A DNA stretch of 25,634 bases from a virus. The stretch lies in IMG/VR virus record IMGVR_UViG_3300027816_000378, positions 1 through 25,634 of that record; one strand, given 5' to 3'. Shown here piece by piece: positions 20,480 to 25,556 of the stretch (the stretch's first letter is position 1; each line of letters begins with the position of its first letter). The notes beneath the pieces are model-generated. The model did no database searches. It was given only the letters and a program-made list of their open reading frames with translations, and was not told where the DNA came from. The position numbers and the translations under genes were made by a program.

Positions 20480-21615
20480 TACTTGCTAGCTCCTATTCCG
20501 GATCCAGAGAAGCATTCAATAGAGATTGAAACTTGTGTTTGAAGCGGGATCATGGTCTCTGTGAACTTAGTATGGTTCATAGAAAGGTTAGAGATCCAAC
20601 CAACATAGGAAAGATTATCTTGCGTAGGTCCAAGTTCTATACCTAGAAGCGTTGGCTGTAAATAACCAATATTGGCGGTTACTCTGTTTAGTAGGTTGGT
20701 GTAATAGCCGGGTTTGCCATCAGGTCCAATGAATCCCGATCCGTTTACTGCTCTAAATAAATATTCAAGATCATAGAGGGTTCCTTGCCGTAGTAAGGCA
20801 TCCATCTCTGTAGCAAAGTCTTGCTTTAGTTCGTTTGGGTATCTATTGAGGTAGTAGGTTTCAAAAGTTTTTAAGTCAGAAGTGGTGCCCTGTGAAGCAT
20901 GCTTGATACAGGCAAAGTCATTAGTTCTATCTAGAAGAAGGTTTAAGCTAACCGTCTCTTGACCTGGAAACACACCTGTTACTACACGAAGAGCATCCGC
21001 AGCAGACGGGGTGATGTCCATATTTCTAGCAACATTTACAGAGATTGATTCTGGGTTCCATAAGAATTGGAAAGCATACTTTCTATCTTCTAAGTTAATT
21101 TCGCTTCCGCCAACGACTTTTGTGCCAGCAACTTTTTCAGCCGCGGTTACAGTTTCTCCAGTAGATGAGTCAATTTGAGTGATGTCGCCAGAGGTGTTCC
21201 AGTACCAAATACGACCACGACGAAGACCATGGAAAGATGTTCCAGATCCATTAGCTCCGCTTACTATAGTTGAATCAACTTCAACTGGTCGTAGCGGGAT
21301 ACTCCACTGATGAGGTGGCAAGTTAAACTTGTAGTCTTTAGGTGAAGCCGTCCAATTATTTTTTGCTGTGGTAACTACATCATTTGAGTTTGGTTTTTCT
21401 TGAGCCTTATCAGCGTCTAATGCCAACAACAAAGCAATATTTCTGTTAGTAAACCCACCTTTTAATCCAGCTTCAATAAGATCTAGTTCGGTATAGGTTT
21501 TACCGTTAAGTACTTTAGTTAAACGCTTATTACCTGTAGAGGTTGAGTTAGTTGAATTAGCGGCAGATGTTTTTTGGTTGTATGAGCCGTAGTTGGTAGC
21601 GTCTAAATATCCCAT
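20479..21615 (-). CDS. Tube/hub adaptor, Afp7-like
   Basis: A 378-residue structural protein. The N-terminal 75 residues are Ser/Thr/Asn-rich, then a charged helix. The segment KYAFQFLWNPESISVNVARN (179-198) and VFPGQETVSLNLLLDRTND (215-233) resembles the tube-like N-domain of Afp7-type proteins of contractile injection systems and phage tails. The C-terminal part repeats beta strands and ends SMNHTKFTETMIPLQTQVSI. With the small LysM protein encoded next it would make the functional equivalent of one Afp7 with LysM, split into two genes. TAATG overlap with the tape measure gene. Confidence 0.72.
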   Translation of the reverse strand: MGYLDATNYGSYNQKTSAANSTNSTSTGNKRLTKVLNGKTYTELDLIEAGLKGGFTNRNIALLLALDADKAQEKPNSNDVVTTAKNNWTASPKDYKFNLPPHQWSIPLRPVEVDSTIVSGANGSGTSFHGLRRGRIWYWNTSGDITQIDSSTGETVTAAEKVAGTKVVGGSEINLEDRKYAFQFLWNPESISVNVARNMDITPSAADALRVVTGVFPGQETVSLNLLLDRTNDFACIKHASQGTTSDLKTFETYYLNRYPNELKQDFATEMDALLRQGTLYDLEYLFRAVNGSGFIGPDGKPGYYTNLLNRVTANIGYLQPTLLGIELGPTQDNLSYVGWISNLSMNHTKFTETMIPLQTQVSISIECFSGSGIGASK

Positions 21616-23924
21616 TACTTACTCGCCGCCTTTTCTAGTATCTTCTCATCTGAGAACATCTTCTTAATAGTCTCAGCAATTTTCTTAGCGTTGTCACCAA
21701 GTACATTTATAACTACTCCGCCATAGTTGTGGGTAACCCCGCCAGAGCTTAGGGCGCTTGTCAGCATACCCATACCGCCCGCAGCGCTAGCGCCTTGATT
21801 AATAAAAGACTTAAGATCTTTTACTTGAGTTGCGTACTGTGGATCTTTAAGAAGTTTATTAACTTCAGCTAGTGTCTTAGCATCAAGAGATGCAGGATCA
21901 ACACCAAAGAATGTAGCAACATCTTCAGCGCTTGTGGTTCCTCCACCACCTTTGCCCGTACCCCACTTAGACGCGTAAACCGCATCCATAATTCTAGATT
22001 TATCTTTTCCGCTGACGATAGCATTAACGATCTTGTCGTAGCCTCGTTCTTTTGCTTTTTCAGTCAGCGTTAATACAGTTGCTTCTAGACCTTGATTCCA
22101 GCTGGTGTAGTGCCGTACTCCGTGAGATCTTCCAGGTCCTGCATCCATAAGACTTGAGCCAGGTAGAATGCGAGTAGTGTTAAGTGGGTTGTAGCCAGCA
22201 GAGTTATTCCAGTGCCCACCTTCTTGATCCATCCATGATGTAACAGCAGCCATATTAGCGTCTGTTGGCGATCCACCTAGCTTTGTGATTAAAGCTCTAG
22301 CCCAATCTTGTTTACTTAAATTTGGACCTGTATCTTTTACGCTTCCACCATGGTGCCTAAATGGATTTTTGTTATCCATATTAGGAATGATTGTTCCATC
22401 GGTTTTCGGAATAAATAATTCTGGGCCTTCTTCACCAACAACATAGGGAACCTTATCGCTTACTCCACCACCAGTAGCTTTTCCTTTAATGCCTAATAGC
22501 ATCGTTAAGATTTTGGTTAGGAAATCGTTTCCAGATCCCATTAGCGTGGTCACAAAAGCATTTCCGCGAGTAGCCAACTGTAGAACACCTGTAAATCGAT
22601 CAAGCATGTTCATGAACTGACCAAGCATCGTCAAGCTTTGAGCCGCTTGTTCATAGCCAATAGCTCCAGCGTTTGCCACTTGACCAAGTCCTTGAGCGGC
22701 AGCGGCATTTCTCTTGCTGAACGCACTAACAGCAGCAGTAGTTCCACCAAACTCTTGAATGTTTTCTTTAGTAATAGCTCCGCCACCAGTCTTTGCTTTA
22801 AACAAAAGACCGTTAGCAACTAACTGTTTTGCCATAGGATCGTTGCCAAAATACATATCAAGCATGGAGTCCATAGAGTTACCAGGCTGTAAGCCGATAA
22901 GGACTTCGCGCTCAGACGGCTTTCTATCTGAGCCGTAAGCTCGTGCGTAGTCGCGGCAAATCTTTTTCCAGAGGTCGTCAATGATCTGATCAGGTGGCTT
23001 TAGGTTGCCCTGCTCATCACGAAGACGAATACCAATTCCGCGAAGCATGTTTACATTGCGTCCCTGTTGCATTGCGCCAAAGGCTCGCATTGATCCTTCG
23101 GCACCGATGCCGGGAAGAAGGTTGGATACTTGAGCAACGCCCATACCGACGCTACCAAATTGACCACCAGCTTGAGTGATGTTAGGCCCAGTGATGCCGT
23201 AGCTTTGAGCGGCGACCAAAGATCGCATCGCATCCATCTTGTCAAGAACCGTGCCTTCATAAGACATTCGTTCTTGTAATTGACGCATACGTTCAAAGTC
23301 GTATGTTCCACCAATCATTGGGTTCTCCATGAGAACCTCTTTGCCAGATGTAAGTCTTCTACCGCTAGGACCAGCAGAGTTAAAGAACGCGGCGCGTTGC
23401 ATGAGAAGTTGAGCCTCTACTGCATCAGACGCAGAGAACAAAGCTCCGCTTGCTGCGCCGGCAAATAGAGCGCCCGCAGCAGGGTTTTCTTTTATAAAGT
23501 CTGTGAGGTTAGTGCCACCTGTAAATCTGCCACCGCCACCACCGCCTGTAGTGGAAATATCAGGAGTATATGCAACTACTGTCCCACCTCGACTGTATGG
23601 GACCATGCCACCGCCACCGCCAGTAAGAGCAGGTGGTTGAGCGCCTCCGCCTCCACCTCCACCTATTGCGGCTTGACCTGCTGGTGGAGTAAATTCTGGA
23701 TCCGGTGCAACTTGATTTGAGCTTCCACCAATTCCACCACCGCCACCGCCCATCTTGATGCTAGACATAGCATCTCTAAAGCGTTGGGCAGATGTGGTGG
23801 CGTCTTGAAGCTCTTGCTTAAAAAGTCTAAATTCTTGACGAGCATCAACTATGCCGTTTTTGAGGTCAACAATAAAAGACGCTCGGGTTGATCCACCTAG
23901 CCCCAAACGATCTTTGCTATCCAT
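21615..23924 (-). CDS. Tape measure protein with muramidase-like domain
   Basis: A 769-residue protein that should set tail length. N-terminal charged helix (12-55), then Gly-rich repeats (59-135), helical and Ala-rich regions (140-480), and VVGEEGPELFIPKTDGTIIP (495-514), a motif common near the end of phage tape measures. Residues 537-656 carry a lysozyme-like domain: WMDQEGG with Glu568 as candidate acid, NPLNTT (579-584) and GVRHYTSWNQGLEATVLTL (602-620). It would open peptidoglycan during DNA entry. The chain is short for a phage tape measure, so the tail is probably short. The start overlaps a TGA stop of the frameshift extension by one base. Confidence 0.88.
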   Translation of the reverse strand: MDSKDRLGLGGSTRASFIVDLKNGIVDARQEFRLFKQELQDATTSAQRFRDAMSSIKMGGGGGGIGGSSNQVAPDPEFTPPAGQAAIGGGGGGGAQPPALTGGGGGMVPYSRGGTVVAYTPDISTTGGGGGGRFTGGTNLTDFIKENPAAGALFAGAASGALFSASDAVEAQLLMQRAAFFNSAGPSGRRLTSGKEVLMENPMIGGTYDFERMRQLQERMSYEGTVLDKMDAMRSLVAAQSYGITGPNITQAGGQFGSVGMGVAQVSNLLPGIGAEGSMRAFGAMQQGRNVNMLRGIGIRLRDEQGNLKPPDQIIDDLWKKICRDYARAYGSDRKPSEREVLIGLQPGNSMDSMLDMYFGNDPMAKQLVANGLLFKAKTGGGAITKENIQEFGGTTAAVSAFSKRNAAAAQGLGQVANAGAIGYEQAAQSLTMLGQFMNMLDRFTGVLQLATRGNAFVTTLMGSGNDFLTKILTMLLGIKGKATGGGVSDKVPYVVGEEGPELFIPKTDGTIIPNMDNKNPFRHHGGSVKDTGPNLSKQDWARALITKLGGSPTDANMAAVTSWMDQEGGHWNNSAGYNPLNTTRILPGSSLMDAGPGRSHGVRHYTSWNQGLEATVLTLTEKAKERGYDKIVNAIVSGKDKSRIMDAVYASKWGTGKGGGGTTSAEDVATFFGVDPASLDAKTLAEVNKLLKDPQYATQVKDLKSFINQGASAAGGMGMLTSALSSGGVTHNYGGVVINVLGDNAKKIAETIKKMFSDEKILEKAASK

Positions 23925-24097
23925 CAGCTAATTCCTCTTCTGCTATAACGTTGCGCTCGGTCTAACCAGTTGAGGCGCTCTCTATAAGAAAGCTTCCTAA
24001 TCTCCGATAGCGTCCATCCGCTAAAGGTTCTAGTTAGAACTTCGTATTGGTTAAGAAGATGTTCGTAGTCTTGCTTGCTATAAGCGAAACAAGTCGG
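23924..24097 (-). CDS. Frameshift extension of the tail assembly chaperone
   Basis: In the +1 frame relative to the chaperone gene, an open frame runs from 24097 to a TGA at 23926-23924. It has no ATG, GTG or TTG anywhere. It encodes a coherent, charged helical peptide, including YEHLLNQYEVLTRTFSGW and LSEIRKLSYRERLNWLDRA, with no stop codon. This fills an otherwise empty 153-base gap, and the TGA overlaps the tape measure ATG (TGATG). The only site where the chaperone's tRNA could re-pair cleanly is TTT-C at 24089-24086. A slip there would give a 314-residue product with 53 new residues. Frameshifted chaperones upstream of the tape measure are known in most tailed phages (lambda G/GT, P2 E/E'). 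Confidence 0.8.
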   Translation of the reverse strand, partial: PTCFAYSKQDYEHLLNQYEVLTRTFSGWTLSEIRKLSYRERLNWLDRAQRYSRRGIS

Positions 24098-24869
24098 TCA
24101 AACTTAACGGTAGAGGAATATCCTCACCGCATGCCTGACAAGTCTTCTTCACCTCCCCAAGGCGTGGGCCTGGGTTACGGTTCAGGATCTCATCAATAAT
24201 CTTGTTTCGATCTGCCATACCAAGTGATAAAGCAGTTCGAGCGCCTACTGATGGAGCCCCGTTAATAGATGTAATGCAACCAGAAAGAAGAATGGTGTTT
24301 ACCTCAGCGGCTGTCTTATCAATATTGTCCATAAGTTTCTTTTGAACAATACCGTTAGGTAGCGCTACGGTTACGGTGCCCTTCTTTGTTTCTACAACCC
24401 AGTTTCGGTCATTGACCGCATCCTTTAGTTCCTTTGATGGAACATCAGTTAGCAGGTCAATTACTACCTGTTGTTGCTGGCTGCAATTACCGCATCTAAC
24501 TGTCACATTCAGCTCACTGCCAAATGTAATAGTCCTGATGCCTATGAGAATTGCATCTCTGTCGCCGGATAGTAGCTGGTCTAGGTGATCCCGAGTTACC
24601 TCTTCGTTTCCAATTTTAACTAAACCGCGTTCCAGTAAAGCGTTGAGCGCTTTAGCTGTTGACCCGGTTCTTGAAACAATCTCCTCGTCCTCTCCGTTTA
24701 GTTCTCTAACTTCAGCGGTGCGAACAACACCGCTTGGGGTTAGGTAACCACCCGGTAAAGTTACTTCGGAGTCGGATGGAGCCCGAGTTGTTACTTCTGC
24801 CTCGGGCTCCTCCAGAGCCTTCTTTGCGTATTGATTAACTAGTTCCGCATCAGTAATGATTTCAGTCAC
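24078..24869 (-). CDS. Tail/baseplate assembly chaperone, T4 gp26-type
   Basis: A 263-residue protein made before the tape measure. Segments VTLPGGYLTPSGVVRTAEVR (36-55), ELNGEDEEIV and DHLDQLLSGDRDAILIGIRT (94-113), plus Cys126-x2-Cys129 (VRCGNCSQQ), fit the T4-type baseplate/hub assembly family gp26/gp51. A second pair, Cys244-x2-Cys247 (KTCQACGED), lies near the end. The four cysteines could bind one zinc. It should bind the tape measure and help tube initiation, acting off the virion. Start is GTG, nine bases after GGGAG. A second, longer product is likely from a frameshift near its last codons. Confidence 0.8.
   Translation of the reverse strand: MTEIITDAELVNQYAKKALEEPEAEVTTRAPSDSEVTLPGGYLTPSGVVRTAEVRELNGEDEEIVSRTGSTAKALNALLERGLVKIGNEEVTRDHLDQLLSGDRDAILIGIRTITFGSELNVTVRCGNCSQQQQVVIDLLTDVPSKELKDAVNDRNWVVETKKGTVTVALPNGIVQKKLMDNIDKTAAEVNTILLSGCITSINGAPSVGARTALSLGMADRNKIIDEILNRNPGPRLGEVKKTCQACGEDIPLPLSLTDLFRL
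24086..24089 (-). promoter_or_regulatory. Candidate +1 frameshift site (TTT-C)
   Basis: Read on the minus strand as TTG TTT CGC TTA TAG. tRNA-Phe reads both TTT and TTC, so a +1 shift keeps pairing. The other codons between the +1-frame TGA and the zero-frame TAG do not re-pair by +1 or -2. No stem-loop of the usual size is seen within ten bases downstream. Confidence 0.5.
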
Positions 24870-24911: not shown

Positions 24912-25556
24912 TTATCCCTTTGCTCCACCTTCGACTGGTGTAAAGCCTGTATCAGTAAAGAATACTGACAAACCTTCGTGCACCAAGCTCATGGATTCAA
25001 ACAAGATTGCTCCATCGTTAGCATTTAGATCGGTGTAGTTTAATCCACTGATCCAAGCGTTGTGTACTTTGAAGCCCATGCGAGGGACATTTGCATCTGT
25101 AGGTCCAGCGTTTGGATGATCCATAACCCAGATCTTTAGATTGACGCGGAAGGTTTTCTTTTCGGCTAAGCCTACTTTTAGACCATCACCAGCAGCCGCA
25201 GCAAACAAACCACGCATCCATGTGATTGCTTGGTCGTTTCCGTATAGGACGCCGCGTTGCATTGTGATTGGGCTGAAAGTGGTCATACCAGGTACTTGAT
25301 GTACGGTGGTGTTGTAGCCGCCTTCACGGTATTGAATTGATTGAGTGGTGATGTTAAGACCACTGATATTTGTAAAGCCTCCTGCCCAGCCTACTGACTT
25401 ACCAGAAGTGCTAGCTGCCGCATCTGATGACTTAATACGATCATCAAATACAGTTTCTCCGTTACGGCCAACTACTTCGAATTCAACATAGAATCGAAAC
25501 GAGCGTAACGGATCTGTCGCTAGGGTAGAGAAGCGATTGATTGTTGTGTTTGGCAT
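24912..25556 (-). CDS. Tail tube protein, gp19-type
   Basis: A 214-residue tail tube subunit. Typical blocks: DPLRSFRFYVEFE (15-27), FTNISGLNITTQSIQYREGG (61-80), the Gly-Pro bend VPGMTTFSPITMQRGVL (88-104), MRGLFAA, and NAWISGLNYTDLNANDGAIL (166-185) with LVHEGLSVFF. This is the T4 gp19/phage T4-like tube family, which stacks hexamers inside the contractile sheath. Start is ATG, 10 bases after AAGGAGAT. It follows the sheath end by 15 bases, the normal order sheath-tube. Downstream is a 42-base gap without notable structure, then the chaperone. Confidence 0.94.
   Translation of the reverse strand: MPNTTINRFSTLATDPLRSFRFYVEFEVVGRNGETVFDDRIKSSDAAASTSGKSVGWAGGFTNISGLNITTQSIQYREGGYNTTVHQVPGMTTFSPITMQRGVLYGNDQAITWMRGLFAAAAGDGLKVGLAEKKTFRVNLKIWVMDHPNAGPTDANVPRMGFKVHNAWISGLNYTDLNANDGAILFESMSLVHEGLSVFFTDTGFTPVEGGAKG

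Follow-up and report, generated by a model that had tools for sequence, protein, structure and literature searches.

A conserved candidate +1 frameshift site in phage tail assembly chaperones of the T4 gp26 type

The window analyzed here is a 25,634-nucleotide stretch of viral DNA (IMG/VR record IMGVR_UViG_3300027816_000378, positions 1–25,634) from a contractile-tailed virus that infects bacteria. On its minus strand, a tail assembly chaperone gene related to gene 26 of phage T4 is followed by a tape measure gene, and the gap between the two is filled by a +1 reading frame that lacks a standard start codon. The question raised by this locus is how such a frame comes to be translated. An earlier note on the same DNA had proposed a programmed +1 frameshift at a TTT-C near the end of the chaperone gene and had taken it for a rarer +1 case. 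Every comparative test that we ran agrees with a +1 shift at this codon, the fusion itself being predicted from sequence. It is, however, neither rare nor isolated: the same chaperone family has two kinds of +1 site, −1 sites and a start–stop overlap. We assign a probability of roughly 0.88 to a reading in which one gene would produce a 263-residue chaperone and a minor 314-residue +1 form, with T4-like phages encoding both forms as the paralogous genes 26 and 51.

The frame between the chaperone and the tape measure

The last codons of the chaperone gene are GAC TTG TTT CGC TTA TAG. Read in +1, 57 codons (24097–23927) are free of stops between TGA 24100–24098 and TGA 23926–23924, and the second of these shares one A with the tape measure ATG at 23924. 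Because no ATG, GTG or TTG follows the TGA at 24100–24098, the frame can be entered only from the chaperone frame; ATT is the sole near-start within it. When the coordinates were re-checked, the earlier note proved accurate on the length of the open frame, its opening right after a TGA near the chaperone end, its lack of standard starts and its TGATG end. We also obtained the same product lengths, with TTTC read as one phenylalanine giving 314 residues and the unshifted product having 263. An open frame of 57 codons would arise by chance in about 6% of cases, (61/64)^57, and is therefore not rare alone; the argument beyond chance rests on conservation, namely the tblastn matches to the extension, its excess of third-position differences and the invariant TTT.

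We infer that a single start yields the 263-residue gp26-type chaperone and that, in a minor fraction of events, the P-site tRNA-Phe slips from UUU to UUC while CGC sits in the A site, giving the 314-residue form. The extra 53 residues would make up a small helical domain absent from the short form. As the earlier note held, the TTT-C at 24089 is the sole point at which this can happen, no other codon in the overlap re-pairing after a +1 slip. A −2 slip, as in phage Mu, would give the same frame. However, no codon of the overlap re-pairs two bases upstream (TTT would lie over TGT and CGC over TTC), whereas TTT over TTC is a perfect match. In addition, the C after TTT is conserved among relatives despite variation in the next codon (CGN, CAG, CTC, CCG or CTG). 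We therefore rejected the −2 reading, which is very improbable. A phage-encoded tRNA was also discarded as an explanation because the window contains no tRNA.

Conservation of the shift site and of the extension

A scan of viral contigs provided 80 loci, and further scans together with annotated phage records raised this to 125 in which the end of the chaperone could be read. The longest open continuation is in the +1 frame in 104 of these and in the −1 frame in 21, one locus (L046) having been placed in the +1 group by hand. The extension occupies the +1 frame in relatives down to 30–45% identity. At the shift codon, 69/125 loci have TTT with C as the next base, 57 of these being TTT_CGN, and 32 loci from an aquatic clade have CTT_TTA, a prfB-like CUU_U site. 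Among isolated Streptomyces phages, BRock, pSt2308 and GiJojo have CTG_TTT_CGC, and Alone3 and LuckySocke have TTT_CAG. A +1 extension at TTT is also found in Bacillus SP-15, Listeria LIS04, Streptococcus GXN1 and megaphage LR756508. Scans of viral contigs with SP-15 and T4 gp26 as queries returned few distant relatives.

Comparison of codons shows constraint at the shift site well in excess of what its amino acids require. In the clade of the window (19 non-redundant genes), phenylalanine at the site is encoded by TTT in 19/19, as against 51 TTT to 19 TTC elsewhere, and CGN follows in all 19; codon identity at the site leucine is 0.70, compared with 0.15–0.38 at 17 other conserved leucine columns. 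The BRock-like clade has TTT at the site in 11/11 genes versus a TTT:TTC ratio of 47:56 elsewhere. At its own site the aquatic clade has CTT in 13/13 and TTA in 13/13, a codon identity of 1.00 versus 0.15–0.44 at 15 other leucine columns. A scan of bacterial genome contigs added 18 loci, 13 of which (GC 61–68%) keep TTT_C where TTC dominates. These 13 come from Streptomyces, Saccharothrix, Nonomuraea, Actinomadura, Terracoccus and two metagenome bins labelled Bacillota and Proteobacteria. If they are treated as independent, though they are related, multiplying their local TTT fractions gives 4e-14, and 2e-8 if a single Streptomyces locus is counted along with six others. Avoidance of other in-frame TTT|C was not seen in chaperone genes of the window clade (3 observed, 2.9 expected from synonymous shuffling).

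The +1 extension bears the signature of coding sequence. Pairwise differences in the window clade number 2512, 1275 and 4140 at +1-frame positions 1, 2 and 3, and separate tblastn matches to the extension occur in nearly all full-length relatives. The core common to these is Y-E...G-W-T-L-x-E-I-R-x-L-S-x-R-E-R-x-x-W, with R-x-R..W invariant in the alignment. The earlier note had looked to related phages for conservation of the TTT-C and of the start-less frame, and would have given way to relatives with both parts in one frame or with a decayed +1 frame; the first two are seen in the site counts above and in the start-codon counts below, none of the window-clade relatives has both parts in one frame, and the coding signature is kept.

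These comparisons bear on two alternatives. A sequencing or assembly indel, or decay, that splits one continuous open reading frame would explain the frame change itself, and one relative (L016) does carry a premature stop in the chaperone. Yet the same codon and the same frame change recur in >100 independently assembled contigs and in the isolates BRock, pSt2308, GiJojo and SP-15, and the 0-frame stop is present in every case. Such conservation across relatives led us to reject this explanation, the probability of which is close to nil. Alternatively, the extension could be a small gene in its own right, reached by ribosomes that terminate at the chaperone stop and re-initiate past it at a non-standard start. 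The +1 frame does contain ATT codons, and coupling of this kind occurs in the wider family, at a TAATG in LR756511 and at ATGA or GTGA in some actinobacterial DUF6760 loci that resemble the extracellular contractile injection system (eCIS). However, ATG, GTG and TTG are absent before the conserved core in 21/38 window-clade loci, the window included, and re-initiation has no need of the invariant TTG TTT CGN codons that precede the 0-frame stop. We consider re-initiation improbable, and a +1 slip at TTT remains the reading that we favor.

UUU_CGN has precedents as a +1 site. It was shown in influenza PA-X, with Firth et al. predicting a class of UUU_C sites that prefer CGN (PMC3498833), and a proposed UUU_CGN site in amalgaviruses fits that class (PMC5052127). 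The window clade shares with these the P-site UUU to UUC re-pairing and CGN in the A site (19/19). The earlier cases are in eukaryotic RNA viruses with unrelated proteins, and CGU is rare in their host, whereas CGC is common in the window-clade chaperone genes; the rare or slow A-site codon of PA-X-like sites is thus lacking here, though it is a proposed stimulus and not a strict requirement. A close precedent is a +1 shift at TTT-CGC proposed in 2020 for the tail assembly chaperones of HF1-group haloarchaeal viruses (HF2, HSTV-2) from six related genomes (PMC7230728), that of HSTV-2 also being noted in PMC5009743. What the two systems share is a contractile tail, a pair of reading frames located between the tail tube and tape measure genes, TTT-CGC and a +1 direction. 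They differ in host domain, the HF1 group infecting archaea, and in the much shorter HF2 proteins; the HF2 record and its proteins lack a PF12322 match, which was the sole test of homology. Annotated +1 chaperone shifts in actinophages are known as well: the PRFect study counts 350 forward (+1) sites in its SEA-PHAGES training set and knows of no general forward motif (PMC10885494). Our data may extend the UUU_CGN site, established in influenza PA-X and proposed in viruses of plants and haloarchaea, to bacterial phages with deeply conserved use.

Unlike the SEA-PHAGES forward-shift chaperones, those of BRock-type phages have no shift in their deposited annotation. In the Streptomyces phage records KX925554, OR725492, OR725497, PP725410 and PV588686 the extension is deposited as a hypothetical protein that begins at a start codon of its own, or the gap is left empty (pSt2308). 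If the shift is confirmed, chaperone and extension should become joined features in these records, and the shift motif could be used to annotate a gene part that is now missed or called hypothetical. Two irregular loci were also seen. In L004 (3620–5066) the extension frame continues into the tape measure protein, apparently via a small junction deletion that may be an assembly error. In L016 a premature TAA at 1965 interrupts the chaperone, with the extension still downstream, reflecting a sequencing error or a pseudogene.

Table 1. Features of the chaperone locus in the window
Feature	Position	Strand	Evidence or details
0-frame tail/baseplate-hub assembly chaperone, T4 gp26-type (PF12322), predicted short form, 263 residues, two CxxC pairs	24078..24869	minus	GTG start at 24869; profile and fold
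Candidate +1 shift site TTG_TTT_CGC	24084..24092	minus	E-site TTG 24092–24090; P-site TTT 24089–24087 (re-pairs as TTC); A-site CGC 24086–24084
0-frame stop TAG	24078..24080	minus	Three codons past the shift codon
Predicted +1-frame extension, 53 codons (24085–23927) plus TGA (23926–23924), helical peptide	23924..24085	minus	Alignment and profile matches
TGA closing the +1 frame on the upstream side	24098..24100	minus	Reading-frame analysis
Predicted tape measure protein, ATG at 23924 within the TGATG overlap	21615..23924	minus	PHROG tape measure matches (weak, E 0.001–0.007) and position
Tail tube protein, upstream neighbor	24912..25556	minus	phrog_4542 tail tube, E=3.5e-21

The chaperone family and T4 genes 26 and 51

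The earlier note's description of the protein as a gp26-type chaperone adjoining the tape measure is borne out by its family, its two CxxC pairs and its position. It matches Pfam PF12322 (T4_baseplate, gp26/gp51) with 44.2 bits and E=2.3e-11 against a gathering cut-off of 24.5, and the pairs C126/C129 and C244/C247 are nearly or fully invariant across the family. An AlphaFold model of the 263-residue form has a predicted local distance difference test (pLDDT) score of 88; its top BFVD matches, with E values down to 6e-21, carry the name T4-like baseplate hub assembly protein, and the SP-15 baseplate hub is matched at E 6e-10. A search of NCBIfam gave no useful match. The gene lies between those for the tail tube and the tape measure (Table 1), as in G/GT-type chaperones.

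Frameshifted tail chaperones are known from lambda (gpG/gpGT) and P2 (gpE/E+E′), both with −1 shifts (Xu et al. 2004, as reported in PMC5009743). The window gene resembles these in its place before the tape measure and in its predicted short form and minor C-terminally extended form; it differs in shift direction and in its chaperone, which is of the T4 gp26 type and has no match to the chaperone families of lambda or P2. By sequence profile, the extension may be akin to P2 E′ and DUF6760. PF06528 (P2 GpE) matches 10/25 extensions (best E 0.002, below the curated cut-off; the window's own extension scores 14.5 bits against 23), and DUF6760 (PF20546) matches 4/25 (best E 1.8e-4, also below the curated cut-off), the window's own being unmatched. 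Compared directly with P2 E′, the extension profile scores 26.5, above all 150 column shuffles (mean 8.3, standard deviation 2.1). Should the roles parallel those in lambda G/GT and P2 E/E+E′, the tape measure may be coated or held by the short form, and tube or hub components may be recruited by the long one.

How, then, does T4 fit? It has been named as the one exception among long-tailed phages, without a G/GT frameshift (review PMC5009743), and its gp51 is described as essential for assembly yet missing from the particle, with a function that is not known (PMC3004832). PF12322 spans residues 1–206 of 208 in gp26 and 1–201 of 249 in gp51, leaving gp51 with a C-terminal tail. When the +1 fusion profile is compared with gp26, the alignment stops at the shift point (E 1e-6); with gp51 it continues to cover the extension (E 1e-7), and GWTLSEIRKLSYRER is aligned to YSLNSISKMIPAER. 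The extension alone scores 24.4 against the gp51 tail, and 150 column shuffles (mean 8.0, standard deviation 1.8, maximum 14.5) contain none as good. Gene number divides accordingly in whole-record searches: two PF12322 genes are present in 11/11 T4-like records, in RB43 head to tail, and one in 27/27 records of the frameshift or overlap type.

We infer that in T4 a gene duplication took the place of the frameshift, so that gp26 would correspond to the short form and gp51 to the long form. This would explain both T4's status as an exception and an essential gp51 that is absent from the particle, and it would give that hub protein a concrete role. On balance, T4 is probably no exception: gp26 and gp51 would be separately encoded short and long forms, whereas contractile phages elsewhere and some clusters resembling contractile injection systems would use one frameshifted gene in which the site has moved between +1 (TTT_C, CTT_T), −1 (T_TTT_TTC) and a start–stop overlap. 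It is instead conceivable that genes 26 and 51 arose by an unrelated duplication and that the gp51 tail resembles the extension only superficially. The low identity fits that view, as does the lack of a solved relative: sequence searches of the PDB returned nothing beyond chance matches for either the chaperone or gp51, and by fold no solved structure was related to a gp51 model (pLDDT 86). However, the profile alignment passes from the shared domain into the extension far above the column-shuffled nulls, and gene copy number splits 11/11 versus 27/27. We regard an unrelated duplication as unlikely, but as the most serious of the alternatives.

Several points weigh against the overall interpretation of two forms made from one gene by frameshift or, in T4, from two. 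(i) CGC is the commonest arginine codon in the chaperone genes of the window clade, so that no hungry-codon stimulus is evident. (ii) Folding of eight loci gave no conserved RNA structure downstream of the site (z −1.5 to +1.4). (iii) The extension is short, and its P2 E′ and DUF6760 matches fall under the curated cut-offs. (iv) Taken by itself, the −1 extension profile fails to match P2 E′, since 10/150 shuffles score as well. (v) gp51 and the extension share little identity, and the T4 link therefore rests on profile scores and position. (vi) The T4 tape measure gp29 is an assembly-hub protein, and roles may have drifted. Among papers available without subscription, we found none linking PF12322 proteins, gp26 or gp51 to frameshifting; this link, the mixed shift directions and the gp26/gp51 reading appear to be new.

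Other shift directions in the family

The jumbo myophages PA5oct, Atu_ph07, RaK2, 121Q, GAP32, Munch and Phosso have a chaperone that ends at T_TTT_TTC, a classical −1 heptamer, with a related extension in the −1 frame; XacN1 and CM1 have T_TTT_TTT at the chaperone end. The +1 and −1 fusion profiles align across both domains (E 7.5e-25), and the two extensions alone give a score of 33, above all 150 column shuffles (mean 8.6, standard deviation 1.7). No gene annotated as a tape measure follows the chaperone in the examined regions of PA5oct, Atu_ph07, RaK2, 121Q and GAP32, and the extension thus appears to travel with the chaperone.

In loci from Burkholderiales, Lysobacter and Ramlibacter (L192–L196), a T run, mostly GCT TTT TTT TTG, closes the chaperone, and a DUF6760-like extension occupies the −1 frame. 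At least one Lysobacter/Ramlibacter locus resembles an eCIS because an AAA ATPase, a sheath, a hub and a gp5-like protein are found there. Slippage on the nine-T run of these loci could be ribosomal or transcriptional. In the actinobacterial loci L204, L206, L210, L211 and L217 (at ~1485–1500), a conserved GGGGGA-type run stands at the end of the upstream gene, with which the DUF6760 frame overlaps in −1 at an ATGA or GTGA start–stop (CTG in L217); the frame could be reached by start–stop coupling or by a −1 slip on the G run. Lastly, the megaphage LR756511 (L091) has an extension-like peptide at ~4706 behind a TAATG overlap, without a slip site.

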